From positions 1-34,276 of the forward strand of contig NZ_JAABRP010000022.1 of the NCBI RefSeq assembly GCF_011390875.1: a stretch of DNA of 34,276 nucleotides, given 5' to 3'. This DNA is from Thiocapsa sp. (GTDB lineage Bacteria > Pseudomonadota > Gammaproteobacteria > Chromatiales > Chromatiaceae). The notes beneath the pieces were generated by a model. The model searched no databases. It had not been told where the DNA came from and worked only from the letters and a program-made list of their open reading frames with translations. Numbering within the stretch: the stretch's first letter is position 1; each line of letters begins with the position of its first letter. A program made the translations under genes and the position numbers. Positions 1,208-21,480 of the stretch are shown here, in pieces.

Positions 1208-1294
1208 TTAAACCGCGCCTGCTGCGGCGGTCGTCCGAGCATGCGCGGCCAAGCCAATCCAAAAAACGACGCATACCGCACCGGGCGCGGTTTA
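1208..1294. repeat. ~87-bp TIR element, solo copy (A)
   Basis: ttaaaccgcgcc ... gggcgcggttta termini. Interior gcgcggccaagccaatccaaaaaacgacgcataccgcaccgg is shared with the copies at 14674, 14783 and 21394. Confidence 0.85.
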
Positions 1295-9486: not shown

Positions 9487-9571
9487 TAAAACGCGTCCCG
9501 AGCGGATATCCGGGCTGCGTTGAAAGACGCGGCCCGGTGCATGCCGAGGGGTCTGCTTTGGACGAGGTTTA
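9487..9571. repeat. Diverged solo copy (F) of the ~87-bp TIR element
   Basis: taaaacgcgtcc...ggacgaggttta (10/12 pairing). Left end cgcgtcccgagcggatat matches cgcgtccagagcgacatg of the copy at 21287. Begins 2 nt after the stop codon at 9482-9484. Confidence 0.6.
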
Positions 9572-14673: not shown

Positions 14674-14867
14674 TAAACCGCACTCGGTGCGGTGTACGTC
14701 GCTTGTTGGATTGGCTTGGCCGCGCCAGCTCCGGCAACTGGCGGAGCTGGCGCGACTTAAAGCATTAAAAAATATTAAATTTTAAACCGCGCCGGATCCA
14801 GCGGTGATCAAGTCTGCCGGGGCCGATCCCATCCAAAAACATCGCATACCGCACTGGGCGCGGTTTA
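14674..14867. repeat. Composite (paired) TIR element, copies B' (14674-14760) and B (14783-14867) in inverted orientation
   Basis: taaaccgcactcggtgcggtgtacgtc...ggcgcgacttaa - agcattaaaaaatattaaattt linker - taaaccgcgccggatcc...cgcataccgcactgggcgcggttta. B' contains a perfect 11-bp hairpin cgccagctccg/cggagctggcg. Confidence 0.85.
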
Positions 14868-14977
14868 AGCCTCGATGTGAAAATTCACACACGCTGATCC
14901 GATCCACCGAACGAGGACATGCCGAGCTCGCTCCGACCCTCCCGCGCCGTCGCGGACCGCGGATTCAAGACGTGGCG

Positions 14978-15850
14978 TCAATCGCGCTGCGCCGCATCCA
15001 CATAGCGATCGCGAGCCGCCTTGGCTCGCTCGAAGATGGCCAGCAGGCGCTCGCCGTCGGCGCTGCGAATACTCTCTGCGAGATCGGTCATCTCGATGCC
15101 GAAGCGCGCCAGCATGGCGCTCAATGCCTCGCGATTTGCGATACAAATGTCGCGCCACATGACTGGGTTGCTCGAGGCGATACGGGTGAAGTCTCGGAAA
15201 CCACCGGCGGCATAGCGAAAGATCTCGTCGTTCTCGCGCATGCGCGCCAGCGCATCGACCAGCCCATAAGCGAGCATGTGGGGCAGATGGCTGGTGGCCG
15301 CGAGTACCTCGTCGTGATGCGCGACGGACATACAGGTCACCTCGGCTCCGCAGGTCTCCCACATCGCGGTGACCCGTGCGAGCGCGTCGGCATCGGTCTC
15401 GGGCAGCGGGGTCAGGATAACGCGACGCTGCCGGTAAAGCTCGGCGACGGATGCCTCCACGCCGCTATGCTCGGTCCCGGCGATCGGATGGCCGGGGACC
15501 AGTCGCGGCGGCACCCCGCCGAAGACACCGCTCGCATCCGCCACCACGCTGCCTTTCACGCTGCCCCCGTCGGTCACCACCGCCGCAGGGTCGAGCCGGT
15601 CGCGGATCGCCTCGAAGACACCGCGCATGGCGCCGAGCGGCACGGAGACAAACACCATGTCCGCACCCGTCACCGCCTCGGCGGGATCCTGCGTCAGCAG
15701 ATCGACCACACCCAACTCACGCGCCCGCTCGAGGTTGGCAAGCCCGCGCCCGCAGCCGATGACCTGCCGCACGGCTCCGGCCTCGCGCAGGGCTCGGGCG
15801 AGGGATCCGCCGATGAGTCCAACCCCGATGATCGCCAGCCGCTCGATCAT
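14978..15850 (-). CDS. tyrA: Prephenate dehydrogenase
   Basis: 290 aa; MIERLAIIGVGLIGGSLARALREAGAVRQVIGCGR, DGGSVKGSV, PGHPIAGTEHSGVEA. 4-nt overlap with hisC. Confidence 0.93.
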   Translation of the reverse strand: MIERLAIIGVGLIGGSLARALREAGAVRQVIGCGRGLANLERARELGVVDLLTQDPAEAVTGADMVFVSVPLGAMRGVFEAIRDRLDPAAVVTDGGSVKGSVVADASGVFGGVPPRLVPGHPIAGTEHSGVEASVAELYRQRRVILTPLPETDADALARVTAMWETCGAEVTCMSVAHHDEVLAATSHLPHMLAYGLVDALARMRENDEIFRYAAGGFRDFTRIASSNPVMWRDICIANREALSAMLARFGIEMTDLAESIRSADGERLLAIFERAKAARDRYVDAAQRD

Positions 15851-16989
15851 GACGCGAGAACGTCCTCGAGCGCGGCGATGCAGCGGGCGTTCTCGGACTC
15901 CAGACCGATGCTGATCCGCAGGTGGTTGGGCAGACCGTAGTTGCCGACCGGTCGCACGATGACGCCGCGTTTCAGCAGGTCATGATTCACCGGACCGGCC
16001 GGTCGGCCGACATCGACCGTGATGAAGTTGCCGACCGACGGGATGTACGCGAGGCCCATGCGCTGGAAGGCGTTAAGGTACTGCCGCATCCCCGCACGGT
16101 TGAGCTCGACCGACGCACGCACATGCTCGCGATCGCCGATTGCAGCGGCCGCGGCGGCCTGAGCGAACGCGTTGACATTGAAGGGCTGACGCACCCGATT
16201 GAGCAGATCCGCCACCTGCGGATCGCTGAGCCCGTACCCGACTCGCAGCGCGGCCAAACCATGGGCCTTCGCGAAGGTCCGGGTCACGATGAGATTCGGA
16301 AACTGTTCGAGCCAGTGCGTGGCATCCGGGAAGTCCGGCTCGCCGACGTACTCCGTATAGGCCTCGTCGATCACGACGATGCAGGTCCCTGGTATGGCCT
16401 CGATGAATGACTTCAGCGGCGCGGCCGCCAACCAGGTCCCGGTCGGATTGTTCGGGTTGGCGATCCAGACCACGCGGGTCTTGTCCGATACGAGACGGGC
16501 CATCGCGTCGAGATCGTTACCGTGATCGCGCGCCTTGGCGACTCGAGCGGTCGCACCGACCGCCTGAGTCGAGATGGGATAGACCGCAAAGGCATGTTCG
16601 GAAAAGACCGACTCCACACCCGGATACAGGAAGGTCCGGGCGATCAGGTCGAGCACGTCGTTCGATCCGTTCCCGATGGTCACGGCGGTCTGCGGAACAC
16701 CGTGAAACTCGGCGAGCACACGGCGCAGCTCGAACCCGCCGCCATCGGGATAGCGACCGATCTCGCCCATCAAACCGGCGATTGCCTCGCGCGCCCGCGG
16801 GCCGGGGCCCAACGGATTCTCGTTCGAGGCCAGCTTCACCGAGTCGCGAATACCGAGCTCGCGCTCCAGCTCCGAGACCGGCTTGCCGGGGACGTAAGGC
16901 GTAAGTCCGGCGATTCCGGGGGCGGTGAGAGGAAGGAAGGGATTGTCTTGGACAGTCATGAGTAGCGGTTCGGGTTCAAGTGTTGGCAT
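15847..16989 (-). CDS. hisC: Histidinol-phosphate / aromatic aminotransferase
   Basis: 380 aa; SVKLASNENPLGPGPRAREAI, NPNNPTGTW, VVIDEAYTEYV, TRTFAKAHGLAALRVGYG. ATG 16989 has GAGGG-N8; an alternative internal ATG is at 16959. Confidence 0.93.
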   Translation of the reverse strand: MPTLEPEPLLMTVQDNPFLPLTAPGIAGLTPYVPGKPVSELERELGIRDSVKLASNENPLGPGPRAREAIAGLMGEIGRYPDGGGFELRRVLAEFHGVPQTAVTIGNGSNDVLDLIARTFLYPGVESVFSEHAFAVYPISTQAVGATARVAKARDHGNDLDAMARLVSDKTRVVWIANPNNPTGTWLAAAPLKSFIEAIPGTCIVVIDEAYTEYVGEPDFPDATHWLEQFPNLIVTRTFAKAHGLAALRVGYGLSDPQVADLLNRVRQPFNVNAFAQAAAAAAIGDREHVRASVELNRAGMRQYLNAFQRMGLAYIPSVGNFITVDVGRPAGPVNHDLLKRGVIVRPVGNYGLPNHLRISIGLESENARCIAALEDVLAS

Positions 16990-17021
16990 TTGGACGCCCT
17001 CGATCGGCAGAACAATCGAAG

Positions 17022-17168
17022 GCTCGACATGATAAACGCCTCGAAGAGACCGTCGGACAAACGAAATCCTCGATCATTCGCTTTCACGAGAATCTGCTTC
17101 GCGGATTCCGCATCCAGGATCTCACGCTGGACCGCAAGCGACAGGAGGCCGACCAATCCGAGCACTCC
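17022..17168 (-). pseudogene. Remnant of the C-terminal part of a DUF3368 (PIN-like, VapC-type) protein
   Basis: Frame reads GVLGLVGLLSLAVQREILDAESAKQILVKANDRGFRLSDGLFEAFIMSS, resembling the DUF3368 C-terminus (GTLGLL...GFRISDxLYExxL). No N-terminal PIN region is in frame upstream. Confidence 0.5.
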
Positions 17169-17349
17169 GTAAAAGGGGAATCGAAGTATAGCAGAGTGGC
17201 TTGAACAGACCTCCGGGGACGCGCAGCAGACGGGGTTTTTGGCGCAGATCATGCCTAAGTACTTGAGCACTTAAGCGCCCGGAGGCCGCACATCGAAGCG
17301 AACCCGTCCGTGATCGTGAAGCCTGTCATACCGGACGCGGCCCGAAGGT

Positions 17350-18456
17350 TCAAAGCACCGCTAATGGATAAGATCCGAGCACCTTGAACAAGAGCGATGC
17401 CTGCCTGAGGTTCTCGAGCGCGAGCGCGACCTTCGGGTCGTCTCTATGACCCATGATGTCGATGAAGAAGACATAGTCCCAGATGCCGCGGCGTGAGGGG
17501 CGCGACTCGATGCGGGTCATGCTGATGCCGTGGGCGGCCAAAGGTGTCAGCAGATTGTGGAGGCCGCCGGCATGGTTGCGGCAAGAGAGAAGTAGGCTGG
17601 TCTTGTCCTGGCCTTGGCCGCTCGGCCGAGAGTCCTGCGGACCGATGACGAGGAAGCGGGTGGTGTTGCCGGGTTCGTCTTCAATGCGCTCGGCGAGCAC
17701 CTTGAGTCGGTAAATCTCGGCGGCCTGTAGACCCGCGACAGCCGCGGCATCCTCCTCCGTCGCAGCGGTCCGTGCGGCCTCGGCATTGCTGCCGACGGCG
17801 ATGCGCTCGGCGTTCGGGAGATGGCGATCGAGCCAGCCGCGGCATTGTGCCAAGGACTGCTGATGCGAATACAGGGTGCGGATCGCGCAGAGATCCTCGG
17901 TCACGCTCATGAGGTGATGGTGGATCCGCAGGCTCACCTCGCCGGTGATCATTAGGGGCGAGGTCATGAACATGTCCAGGGTATGGCTGACCACGCCCTC
18001 GGTCGAGTTCTCGACCGGGACCACGCCGAAATCGCAGGAGCCGGCCTCCACCTCGCGAAAGATCTCGCCGATGGTGGCCAAGGCAAATGTCTTCACCGAA
18101 TGGCCGAAGTGCTTGATGGCCGCAGCCTGTGTGAAGGTTCCGGCCGGACCGAGAAAGGCGACGTTGAGCGGACGTTCGAGGGCCAGACAGGCTGACATGA
18201 TCTCGCGAAAGAGTCGGGCGACCTCTTCGCCGTCGAGTGGACCGGGGTTGGCGGCCTTGATGCGACGCAGGACCGCGACCTCGCGCTCGGGTCGATAGAA
18301 CTGCACCCGATTGCCGTCCGCCGAGGTCTTGATGTGGGCGACCTGTTGGGCGCAACTGGCGCGCTCGCTGATCAGACGAAGCAGTTCAAGATCGATCGCG
18401 TCGATCCGATTCCGCACGTCTTCCAAGGCGTCGCCCTGTGCGCTGTTTTGCTCCAT
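17350..18456 (-). CDS. pheA: Bifunctional chorismate mutase / prephenate dehydratase (P-protein)
   Basis: 368 aa; LEDVRNRIDAIDLELLRLISERASCAQQVA, NVAFLGPAGTFTQAAAIKHFG, ESRPSRRGIWDYVFFIDIMGH. ATG overlaps the serA stop by 1 nt. Confidence 0.96.
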   Translation of the reverse strand: MEQNSAQGDALEDVRNRIDAIDLELLRLISERASCAQQVAHIKTSADGNRVQFYRPEREVAVLRRIKAANPGPLDGEEVARLFREIMSACLALERPLNVAFLGPAGTFTQAAAIKHFGHSVKTFALATIGEIFREVEAGSCDFGVVPVENSTEGVVSHTLDMFMTSPLMITGEVSLRIHHHLMSVTEDLCAIRTLYSHQQSLAQCRGWLDRHLPNAERIAVGSNAEAARTAATEEDAAAVAGLQAAEIYRLKVLAERIEDEPGNTTRFLVIGPQDSRPSGQGQDKTSLLLSCRNHAGGLHNLLTPLAAHGISMTRIESRPSRRGIWDYVFFIDIMGHRDDPKVALALENLRQASLLFKVLGSYPLAVL

Positions 18457-19640
18457 CAGTCAATCCGTTCCTGAGCTCCGAGACAACGCACGGAGAGGAC
18501 GCCCTCGATGGCACGCAATTGCTTCGCCGTGTCTTCCGGGCACCGCTGATCGATATCGATCAGGGTCACCGCCACGTTGCCGCGCGAACGATTGAGCATA
18601 TCGAGGATGTTCAGCCCGGCAGCGGCCAGATCGGTCGAAATCTGCCCGACCATGTTGGGCACGTTACTGTTGACGATCGCGATGCGATAGCCGCCGTTGC
18701 GCGGGAGATTGATCTCGGGAAAGTTCACCGAGTTGGTCACATTGCCGTTCTCGAGATAATCGCGGACCTCTTCGGCGACCATGACCGCGCAGTTCTCCTC
18801 CGCCTCTTTGGTCGAGGCGCCGAGATGCGGCAGGGTGATCACCCGCGGGTGGTCTTTCAAGAGGTTGCTCGGGAAATCGCAACAATAGGCATAAAGGTAC
18901 CCCTGATCCAGTGCGGTGACGACGGCGTCGTCGTCGATGATCCCGTCGCGCGAGAAGTTCAGAAGGACAGCGCCCTTGCGCAGTGTACGCAGCCGCTCGG
19001 CGTTGATCATGTGTCGCGTATCGGCGGTGAGCGGGACGTGGAAGGTGACGAAATCCGAGCGCGAGAGCAGATCGTCGATGCTCAGCGCCGGCTGCACATC
19101 GCTCTCGAGCTGCCAAGCGCGCTGGACCGTGATGGTCGGATCATAGCCGACGACGCGCATCCCGAGCGAGCGAGCCGCATTGGCGACCTTCACACCGATC
19201 GCGCCGAGACCGATGACACCCAGCGTACGGCCCGGAAGCTCGAAGCCCACGAACTGCTTCTTGCCGGCCTCGACCGCCTGATGGATGGCCATATCGTCGC
19301 CCTCGAGCCCGCGCGCGAAGCGCCACGCCTGCCCGATGTTGCGTGCCGCGATCAACATGCCGGCGATCACCAGCTCCTTGACGGCGTTCGCATTGGCGCC
19401 GGGCGCGTTGAAGACCGCCACGCCGCGCGCCGTCATCGCCTCGACCGGGACATTGTTGGTCCCGGCGCCGGCGCGTCCGATCGCCTGGACACTCGGCGGG
19501 ATATCCGCCGCCTGCATCTTGGCCGAGCGCACCAGAATGGCATCCGGATGTGCGATCTCCGAGGCGACCTCGTAGCGATCCCGCGGCAACCGATCGAGCC
19601 CGGCGACGGCGATATTATTAAGCGTCTGGATTTTGAACAC
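18456..19640 (-). CDS. serA: D-3-phosphoglycerate dehydrogenase (short type with ACT domain)
   Basis: 394 aa; GTG start, MFKIQTLNNIAVAGLDRLPRDRYEVASEIAHPDAILVRSAKMQ; GRTLGVIGLGAIGVKVANAARSLGMRVVGYDP; C-terminal ACT region. Confidence 0.94.
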   Translation of the reverse strand: MFKIQTLNNIAVAGLDRLPRDRYEVASEIAHPDAILVRSAKMQAADIPPSVQAIGRAGAGTNNVPVEAMTARGVAVFNAPGANANAVKELVIAGMLIAARNIGQAWRFARGLEGDDMAIHQAVEAGKKQFVGFELPGRTLGVIGLGAIGVKVANAARSLGMRVVGYDPTITVQRAWQLESDVQPALSIDDLLSRSDFVTFHVPLTADTRHMINAERLRTLRKGAVLLNFSRDGIIDDDAVVTALDQGYLYAYCCDFPSNLLKDHPRVITLPHLGASTKEAEENCAVMVAEEVRDYLENGNVTNSVNFPEINLPRNGGYRIAIVNSNVPNMVGQISTDLAAAGLNILDMLNRSRGNVAVTLIDIDQRCPEDTAKQLRAIEGVLSVRCLGAQERID

Positions 19641-19836
19641 TGAATCGCGTCCTCAGTGATAAACGGATGTTGGAGTGAAGGGCCAAGCGCCAAGCGAATC
19701 AATGGCCTTTGAGCCGACGCGATTCAGAAAAAGAAAAAAGATTCATTCCTGAACCGCGTCCGCGCCGAGGACCGAGGCGACATGCGTGGCCAAGCCAAAA
19801 CCCCGACCGCGCATGTCACACCGGCGACGCGGTTCA
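19641..19836. repeat. Composite TIR element, copies E1 (19641-19726) and E2 (19750-19836)
   Basis: E1 tgaatcgcgtc...gacgcgattca (11/11), 23-bp linker, E2 tgaaccgcgtc...gacgcggttca (11/11). Spans from the serC stop codon to the base before the serA GTG. Confidence 0.85.
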
Positions 19837-20916
19837 GCCGTGCTTGCGCTCGAATTCCTGCATGAAGCCGACCAGCGCCTCGACGCCTTCCTGCGGCATT
19901 GCATTGTAGATGCTCGCGCGCATACCGCCGACCGAGCGATGACCCTTGAGCGTGGTCAGGTTCGCAGCCTTCGCCTCTTTGATGAAGGTGTCGTCCAGCT
20001 CCGAGTCGGCGAGCGTGAAAGGCACGTTCATCCAAGAGCGCGAAGCCGGCTCGACCGGGTTTTTGAAGAAGCCCGAGCCATCGATCGTCTTGTAGAGGAG
20101 CTCGGCCTTGCGTGCGTTGATCTTGCCCATCGCCTCCAAACCACCCAGGCCCTTCAGCCACTCGAACACCAGTCCGGCGAGGTACCAGGCGTAAGTCGGC
20201 GGGGTGTTGTACATGGAGTCGTTGTCGGCTTGGACCTTGTAGTCCAGCATCGTCGGTGTTGCGGGCAGGGTCTGGCCGAGCAGATCCTCGCGGACGATCA
20301 CGATGACGAGACCGGCCGGACCGATGTTCTTCTGGGCACCGGCATAGATGAGCCCGAAGCGCGAGACATCGATCGGACGCGACAGGATGGTCGAGGACAT
20401 GTCCGCAACCAGGGGTTTGTCGCCGACATCCGGGATATAGGGAAACTCGACGCCCTCGATGGTCTCGTTCGGGGTGTAGTGGACGTAGGCGGCATCGGCG
20501 CTCAGGGTCAGCTCGTCCTGACGCGGTGCGCGGGTGAAGCGCTCGGCCTCGGTACTGGCAGCCACCTTGACCTCGCCGTAACGGCGCGCCTCGGCGATGG
20601 CCTTCTTCGACCAAGAGCCGGTGTTCAGATAGTCCGCACCCGCCGCGCCGCGCAGCAGATTCATCGGGATGGCGGCAAACTGGGTGGAGGCGCCGCCCTG
20701 TAGGAACAGGACCTTGTAGTTGCTCGGGACCGCCAGGAGCTCGCGCAGATCGGCCTCGGCTTGGGCCGCGATCGACATGAATTCCTTGCCGCGATGGCTC
20801 ATCTCGGCGACACACATACCGCTGCCGCGCCACTCGAGCATCTCGTCGCGCGCCCTGCTCAGGACAGGCTCAGGAAGCATTGCAGGGCCTGCGCTGAAGT
20901 TGTAAACCCGAGCCAT
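19834..20916 (-). CDS. serC: Phosphoserine aminotransferase
   Basis: 360 aa; [66 protein letters not shown]. Confidence 0.97.
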
Positions 20917-20930
20917 TCTGTAATCTCCGT

Positions 20931-21122
20931 TGAACCGCGCCCAGCGCGGTGTGCGATGTTTTTGGATGGGATCGGCCCCGGCAGCCTTAACGACCGTTGG
21001 AGCCGGCGCGGTTTAAAATATTAAAAAATGTATCATTTAAAGCCGCGTCCCCGCTAAGGGCCGTGGATTCGCCAAACGGCGAACTCACTCGAAAATCAGC
21101 ATCTCGCTCCGGACGCGGTTGA
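20931..21122. repeat. Composite TIR element, copies C (20931-21015) and E4 (21038-21122) in inverted orientation
   Basis: C tgaaccgcgcc...ggcgcggttta; linker aaatattaaaaaatgtatcatt; E4 taaagccgcgtcc...ggacgcggttga. C and copy B (14783) differ at about 9 of 85 positions by eye. Confidence 0.8.
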
Positions 21123-21286
21123 GTCTCGACAAAACGTTTGAGATTCAAACCGCGAAGGCGCAAAGGGCGCGACGTGATTCAGGTTCCGATCTGTTGCGTC
21201 ATCATGCCGATGGATGGCGCGGTTGTCGATTTTCCGGGGTCGTGCGTCGACACGCTTCATCGACGGCACGCCTCCGCAGCCGTGCA

Positions 21287-21477
21287 TAAACCGCGTCCAG
21301 AGCGACATGCGTAGTTTTCATTTTGCGTTTGGCTTCGGAGATGTCCTCGATTCCGGTGAGACGCGGTTTAGAATTTAATATTCTTTAAGACTTTAAACCG
21401 CGCTAGCTCCGACAGTCGTCGGGGCTGGTGCGGCCCAGCCATTCCAACGAATTTACGCATACCGCACCGGGCGCGGT

Positions 21478-21480
<3 letters not shown>
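21287..21480. repeat. Composite TIR element, copies E3 (21287-21370) and D (21394-21480) in inverted orientation
   Basis: E3 taaaccgcgtc...gacgcggttta (11/11); linker gaatttaatattctttaagactt; D taaaccgcgc...gcgcggttta (10/10). Last three bases are the gyrA stop codon. Confidence 0.85.

Follow-up and report, generated by a model that had tools for sequence, protein, structure and literature searches.

Two-module repeats of Thiocapsa are very probably IS630-type miniature transposons that often occupy stop codons

Four composite repeats of 192-196 bp are present in the 34,276-nucleotide stretch (the window) of the Thiocapsa sp. contig NZ_JAABRP010000022.1. Inspection of the letters alone had predicted composites of near-constant length there, and direct reading placed all four at the predicted positions (Table 1). 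We conclude that these repeats are very probably two-module non-autonomous transposons (miniature inverted-repeat transposable elements, MITEs) of the IS630 branch of Tc1/mariner, a subset of which may have been recruited as mRNA hairpins. The units are short (192-196 bp, or about 85 bp when a module stands alone), multicopy, and carry no internal transposase.

Each composite consists of a module of 84-87 bp, a linker and a second module, the AT-rich linker joining the modules tail to tail. The linkers had been given as 21-23 bp; once the terminal TA is counted with the modules, all four are 23 bp. The modules fall into four recurrent types (A, B, C and D), which have the 11-bp ends TAAACCGCGYC/GRCGCGGTTTA in common but not their interiors. 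In composites 1, 3 and 4 the modules are inverted, with an ATGCG-like subterminal sequence at the outward ends. The opposite orientation of the halves, predicted for three pairs, holds for these typed composites, while composite 2 is too diverged to be typed with confidence. The halves are indeed parts of a pair, and they are also complete short modules found alone. The proposal that the pair plus linker is a dispersing unit was borne out. A full-length second copy of composite 1 lies elsewhere in the host genome (locus L002, 84%).

Copy number was determined in the host genome (G000, a 3.98-Mb draft assembly of a Thiocapsa with 390 contigs, 91.5% complete) with the strict pattern AAACCGCGY-N58..80-RCGCGGTTT, the reversed sequence serving as the control. 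The host genome contained at least 356 modules and its reversed control none; 800 kb of a complete relative contained 142 against none, and 43 pairs with a gap of 19-30 bp (mode 23). These counts confirmed that the composites are not chance arrangements. A related pattern was found in 28 of 210 Chromatiaceae genomes belonging to 10 genera, with the highest counts in G010 (515) and in G134, a member of another genus (231); the control was negative in every genome listed. The host itself belongs to Chromatiaceae, as the original prediction had supposed. Records of T. roseopersicina, T. marina, Thiocapsa KS1 and Lamprocystis contain exact matches to a 27-base piece of module A. The original prediction had recognised no named family, and this stands: no Rfam 15 family matched the repeat at its gathering score, and the literature searched for MITEs of Thiocapsa and purple sulfur bacteria held no description of it.

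Comparison of orthologous loci identified empty sites and a duplicated TA. In G002, a 192-bp composite (at 212056) is inserted at the terminal TA of the orthologue of the window's old module 9487-9571, and the same site is a plain, empty TA in G000, G001 and G004. The composites at G004:248821 and G002:241275, which possibly represent one single site, each lie opposite an intact TA in G010. The insertion target reads YTAR, with Y and R each found in 93% of the flanks. At another location (G004:C62, about 287 kb, region positions 14889-15164) a composite has inserted into a single module already in place, at its terminal TA, which the two share; this indicates that the elements can stack end to end.

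A transposase with matching ends had been proposed as a check, and autonomous IS630 elements of related Chromatiaceae, not a RAYT gene, supplied it. Against the NCBIfam IS630 model the transposase reaches 177.5 bits (cut-off 100), and it contains HTH and DDE_3 (Pfam) domains. The ends of an IS630 element in G006 read TAAACC..CGTAATTTT (in full, TAAACCGAGCCTAGCCCGAGATACGTAATTTTT and TAAACCCCGCCCAGAGCGGGATACGTAATTTTCAT); in other Chromatiaceae, elements with a homologous transposase are bounded by the same pair of ends at a distance of about 1.27 kb, and G165 has an open 396-aa copy with ends of the same kind. Between 25 and 31 of 36 bases are identical between the IS630 ends and the outer end of module D, the insertion sequence (IS) copies lying in other genomes, and TAAAC-starting 36-mers of the reversed genome reached at most 19 of 36. 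The likeness to MITEs in the original prediction is thus supported by the TA duplication and the IS630 ends, and its likeness to BIME/REP elements is not. In the proposed mechanism, the IS630 transposase, acting in trans, would excise the unit at both ends and reinsert it into the TA within YTAR, which would be duplicated; this cut-and-paste step in trans is inferred. A search for DDE_3 gave matches in 9 of 11 genomes of the genus, among them the G006 element. The MITE-rich genomes mostly lack this particular IS, which makes the MITEs of most Thiocapsa look like orphans. Two further observations were made on the IS630 elements themselves. G165 has three equal-scoring copies with an open transposase (L220, L229 and L234) together with one exact module only, which suggests recent activity of the IS. 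The G006 copy (L194:1331-1410) occupies the TAA stop of a restriction-enzyme-like gene, and the stop-codon location described below may also hold for the parent IS.

About 40-60% of copies are located exactly on a stop codon, a coincidence that the original prediction had not noted. In G010, 47 of the 104 unit ends that face the 3′ end of a gene are at exactly -3, so that the element's opening triplet is the stop. In all samples together, a stop fusion was found in 71 of 171 intergenic units (59 ends with TAA and 14 with TGA); as a baseline, stops make up 216 of 1458 (15%) free non-coding YTAR sites. Sampled units of the host genome gave 26 of 45, and those of G134 gave 14 of 24. When the analysis was carried out without a gene caller, a frame of at least 120 codons was closed by 45 of 90 singles and by 54 of 152 composite ends, the baseline being 9% of all TAA/TGA triplets. 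Two cases are in the window. The stop codon of gyrA is the terminal TAA of composite 4 (21478-21480, minus strand); this composite is absent at gyrA in the relatives examined, and in four element-free relatives gyrA stops at the same codon (TAG, TAA, TAA, TAG), as was also seen at other loci. In the same way, serC stops at the terminal TGA of composite 2 (19834-19836, minus strand). The unit starts with AACC behind the duplicated TA. A TAA or TAG stop that receives the element therefore always reads TAA afterwards, and the gene product is unchanged. In the sampled Thiocapsa stretches (about 1.8 Mb), 59 fused ends use the TAA of the element, compared with 293 TAA stops called. Stop codons of this kind offer safe TA sites in a GC-rich genome; about half of the surviving copies are found in them, each then forming the 3′ untranslated region (3′ UTR) of its gene.

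The modules are combined according to a rule. In 1.58 Mb from three relatives the typed pairs were A/C (28), B/D (17), A/D (9) and B/C (6), all with heads out, and few others were found. A or B is therefore paired with C or D in most typed composites, the exceptions being the B/A composite 1 of the window and its copy L002. Among 43 typed single modules, 13 have a linker-like stretch on their inner side and 27 lack it, so some singles are broken composites and others solo modules. Composite 3 is 192 bp long in several relatives; G008 retains the first module only and lacks exactly the linker and the second module, as expected from a deletion between two CGCGGTTTA repeats. When read from the C/D side, the linkers of 43 of 61 composites (G010, G002 and G004) have a T-run of at least five. 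No large element bracketed by unpaired module ends was found in 800 kb of G010.

A comparison of stems and interiors addressed the possible role of the repeats in RNA. In orthologous old, diverged modules 3.0% of the stem was changed against 24.2% of the interior, and in the orthologues of composite 2, between serC and serA, the values were 0% and 19.8%. Eight other genomes of the genus keep composite 2 in the orthologous spacer, with both stems retained and few changes. When modules were located by their interior only, seven complementary double changes were counted (six clear, one in a degraded copy) against 0.95 expected, and none of 2000 permutations reached seven. The predicted RNA folds are strong (z of -5.9 and -5.6). 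Most copies decay and some keep their pairing: a subset retains its 11-bp stems although the interior changes, the serC-serA copy being the clearest case. This stem conservation suggests that some copies are now kept as 3′-UTR hairpins, a presumed function. A terminator scan performed no better than shuffles, so canonical terminators are not indicated, and the C/D side is not favoured among the stop-fused ends. Two lines of evidence were set aside. A first covariation count among orthologues was dropped because it included a forced alignment to the element-free G006 locus and chance coding matches (rpoA region), and the symmetry of ends within the genome (26 of 27) is not used as proof because it is confounded by the TGAACC subfamily. 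The outer stem of composite 2 (CTGAGGACGCGATTCA-GTG; 19641-19660, minus strand) includes a possible serA ribosome-binding site, and the composite may have supplied the translation start region of serA. The fullest interpretation, that the transposon family supplies a stop codon and a two-hairpin 3′ UTR to hundreds of genes and that a subset has been selected as functional mRNA hairpins, is put forward tentatively and is rather doubtful as a whole.

Several observations weigh against the IS630-MITE interpretation or its functional part. Neither the host genome, at 91.5% completeness, nor G009 has a detectable DDE_3 transposase; among the inspected Thiocapsa IS630 loci only the G006 copy has matching ends, so that the mobilising enzyme is deduced from other species. 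No source is known for the A/B interiors or for the linker, and some empty sites show TC or AC, or lack bases, instead of a clean TA. As for the stems, one-sided changes number 95 against the seven compensated ones, type D modules have no difference between stem and interior, and composite 3 also decays freely. These last points favour a purely selfish IS630 MITE, to which we give about an even chance and which opposes only the functional last step of our explanation. The stop bias would then reflect target preference, as YTAR by itself favours stop codons, together with the purging of harmful insertions. The stem conservation would be an artefact, either of how old copies were located, in which the ends were partly used, or of template-switch correction of imperfect palindromes. 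However, the difference of 3% against 24% persists when scored in a genome whose ends played no part in the finding, the serC-serA copy keeps both stems in eight other genomes, and template switching, although it matches the arms, would not alone cut the substitution rate so far.

The other two explanations concern the nature of the family itself. A primarily structural RNA or terminator family, spread by recombination without transposition, would account for the strong predicted folds, the T-run after the C/D hairpin and the location of copies at gene ends. It is improbable in view of the clean insertion with TA duplication and the matching IS ends, as well as the negative Rfam, terminator and C/D-side results given above. 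A REP/BIME-type element moved by a RAYT (Y1) transposase is hardly credible, even though paired inverted palindromes in hundreds of intergenic copies resemble such elements and Y1_Tnp genes occur in 11 of 11 genomes. The TA duplication and the IS630-like ends are at odds with it, modules of about 85 bp (84-87 bp) differ from a REP hairpin of 20-40 bp, and the RAYT gene with matching ends that the original prediction proposed to look for did not appear: of 12 Y1_Tnp loci, two had a module in the flanks examined and none was bracketed by modules.

As IS630-type MITEs, the composites appear close in principle to RUP, a short non-coding repeat of pneumococcus with about 110 copies that has TA at both ends and inserts at TA. 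The ends of RUP are like those of the resident IS630, and its mobilisation by IS630-Spn1 was proposed (PMC2229807, PMC3049150). RUP is a single AT-rich unit of 107 bp in Streptococcus with a reported preference for IS-bearing regions (PMC2229807, PMC3049150), whereas the Thiocapsa composites have two GC-rich modules and a linker, occur in several times as many copies and are biased towards stop codons; the families are thus set apart by build, size, base composition, host, abundance and position. ISY100 duplicates its TA target on insertion (PMC2170065), and IS630 is described as preferring the TA in CTAG (Tenzen and Ohtsubo 1991, as cited in PMC2170065). The TA target is alike in the Thiocapsa family (YTAR instead of CTAG), but those elements are autonomous and the composite lacks a transposase. 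REP, BIME and REPIN elements with their RAYT share the high-copy, paired, inverted intergenic palindromes, while the Thiocapsa repeats have another transposase class, a TA duplication and 85-bp modules, and no linkage to RAYT was found. The BOX element of pneumococcus is described in part of PMC3049150 as a modular composite repeat with structured RNA and the proposed parent ISSpn2; here the modules and the parent are different, and there is in addition a stop-codon niche, which that part of PMC3049150 does not mention for BOX. The Correia/NEMIS elements of Neisseria are about 105-155 bp long, with TA termini and a hairpin RNA proposed to act in mRNA processing (PMC2229807); their host differs, the comparison being with the review's description. 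IS630-type MITEs as such are already known, and the two-module build and the stop-codon niche appear to be novel.

Table 1. Positions of the composites, their parts and the single modules in the window.
Feature	Positions	Length	Strand	Sequence or context
Single module, type B	1209-1294		-	
Single module, old	9487-9571			same site occupied in several relatives
Composite 1 (B> linker A<)	14674-14867			between GGDEF/PAS gene and tyrA
Composite 1, module type B	14674-14759	86 bp	+	
Composite 1, AT-rich linker	14760-14782	23 bp		AAGCATTAAAAAATATTAAATTT
Composite 1, module type A	14783-14867	85 bp	-	
Composite 2, old, diverged	19641-19836			occupies entire serC-serA spacer
Composite 2, diverged module	19641-19726	86 bp	+	stem TGAATCGCGTC/GACGCGATTCA; adjoins serA GTG start
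Composite 2, linker	19727-19749	23 bp		GAAAAAGAAAAAAGATTCATTCC
Composite 2, diverged module	19750-19836	87 bp	-	stem TGAACCGCGTC/GACGCGGTTCA
Composite 3 (A> linker C<)	20931-21122			serC start 14 bp downstream
Composite 3, module type A	20931-21015	85 bp	+	
Composite 3, linker	21016-21038	23 bp		AAATATTAAAAAATGTATCATTT
Composite 3, module type C	21039-21122	84 bp	-	
Composite 4 (D> linker B<)	21287-21480			within gyrA stop codon
Composite 4, module type D	21287-21370	84 bp	+	outer end is the one compared with IS630 ends
Composite 4, linker	21371-21393	23 bp		GAATTTAATATTCTTTAAGACTT
Composite 4, module type B	21394-21480	87 bp	-	

Other repeats were observed near the modules. A separate dispersed REP-like repeat (CGTAGGATGGGTAGAGCGCAGCGAAACCCATCC) directly adjoins several modules (loci L020, L025 and L029); in the window, at about 1047-1208, it apparently adjoins the single module 1209-1294. 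A stretch at 21146-21226, conserved in relatives and located between composites 3 and 4, has weak module-like ends (CAAACCGCGA..GCGCGGTTGT) and is possibly a very old copy, or a chance resemblance.

The family clearly exemplifies the persistence of a mobile element on stop codons while the protein remains unchanged, and it has a two-module build in which the modules reassort. Related species hold sites without the element next to recent insertions and old conserved copies, which together provide a countable natural experiment on the recruitment of 3′-end hairpins. If the functional interpretation is true, the selected subset, which includes the serC-serA composite and the old TGAACC copies, would set the ends or the stability of transcripts.

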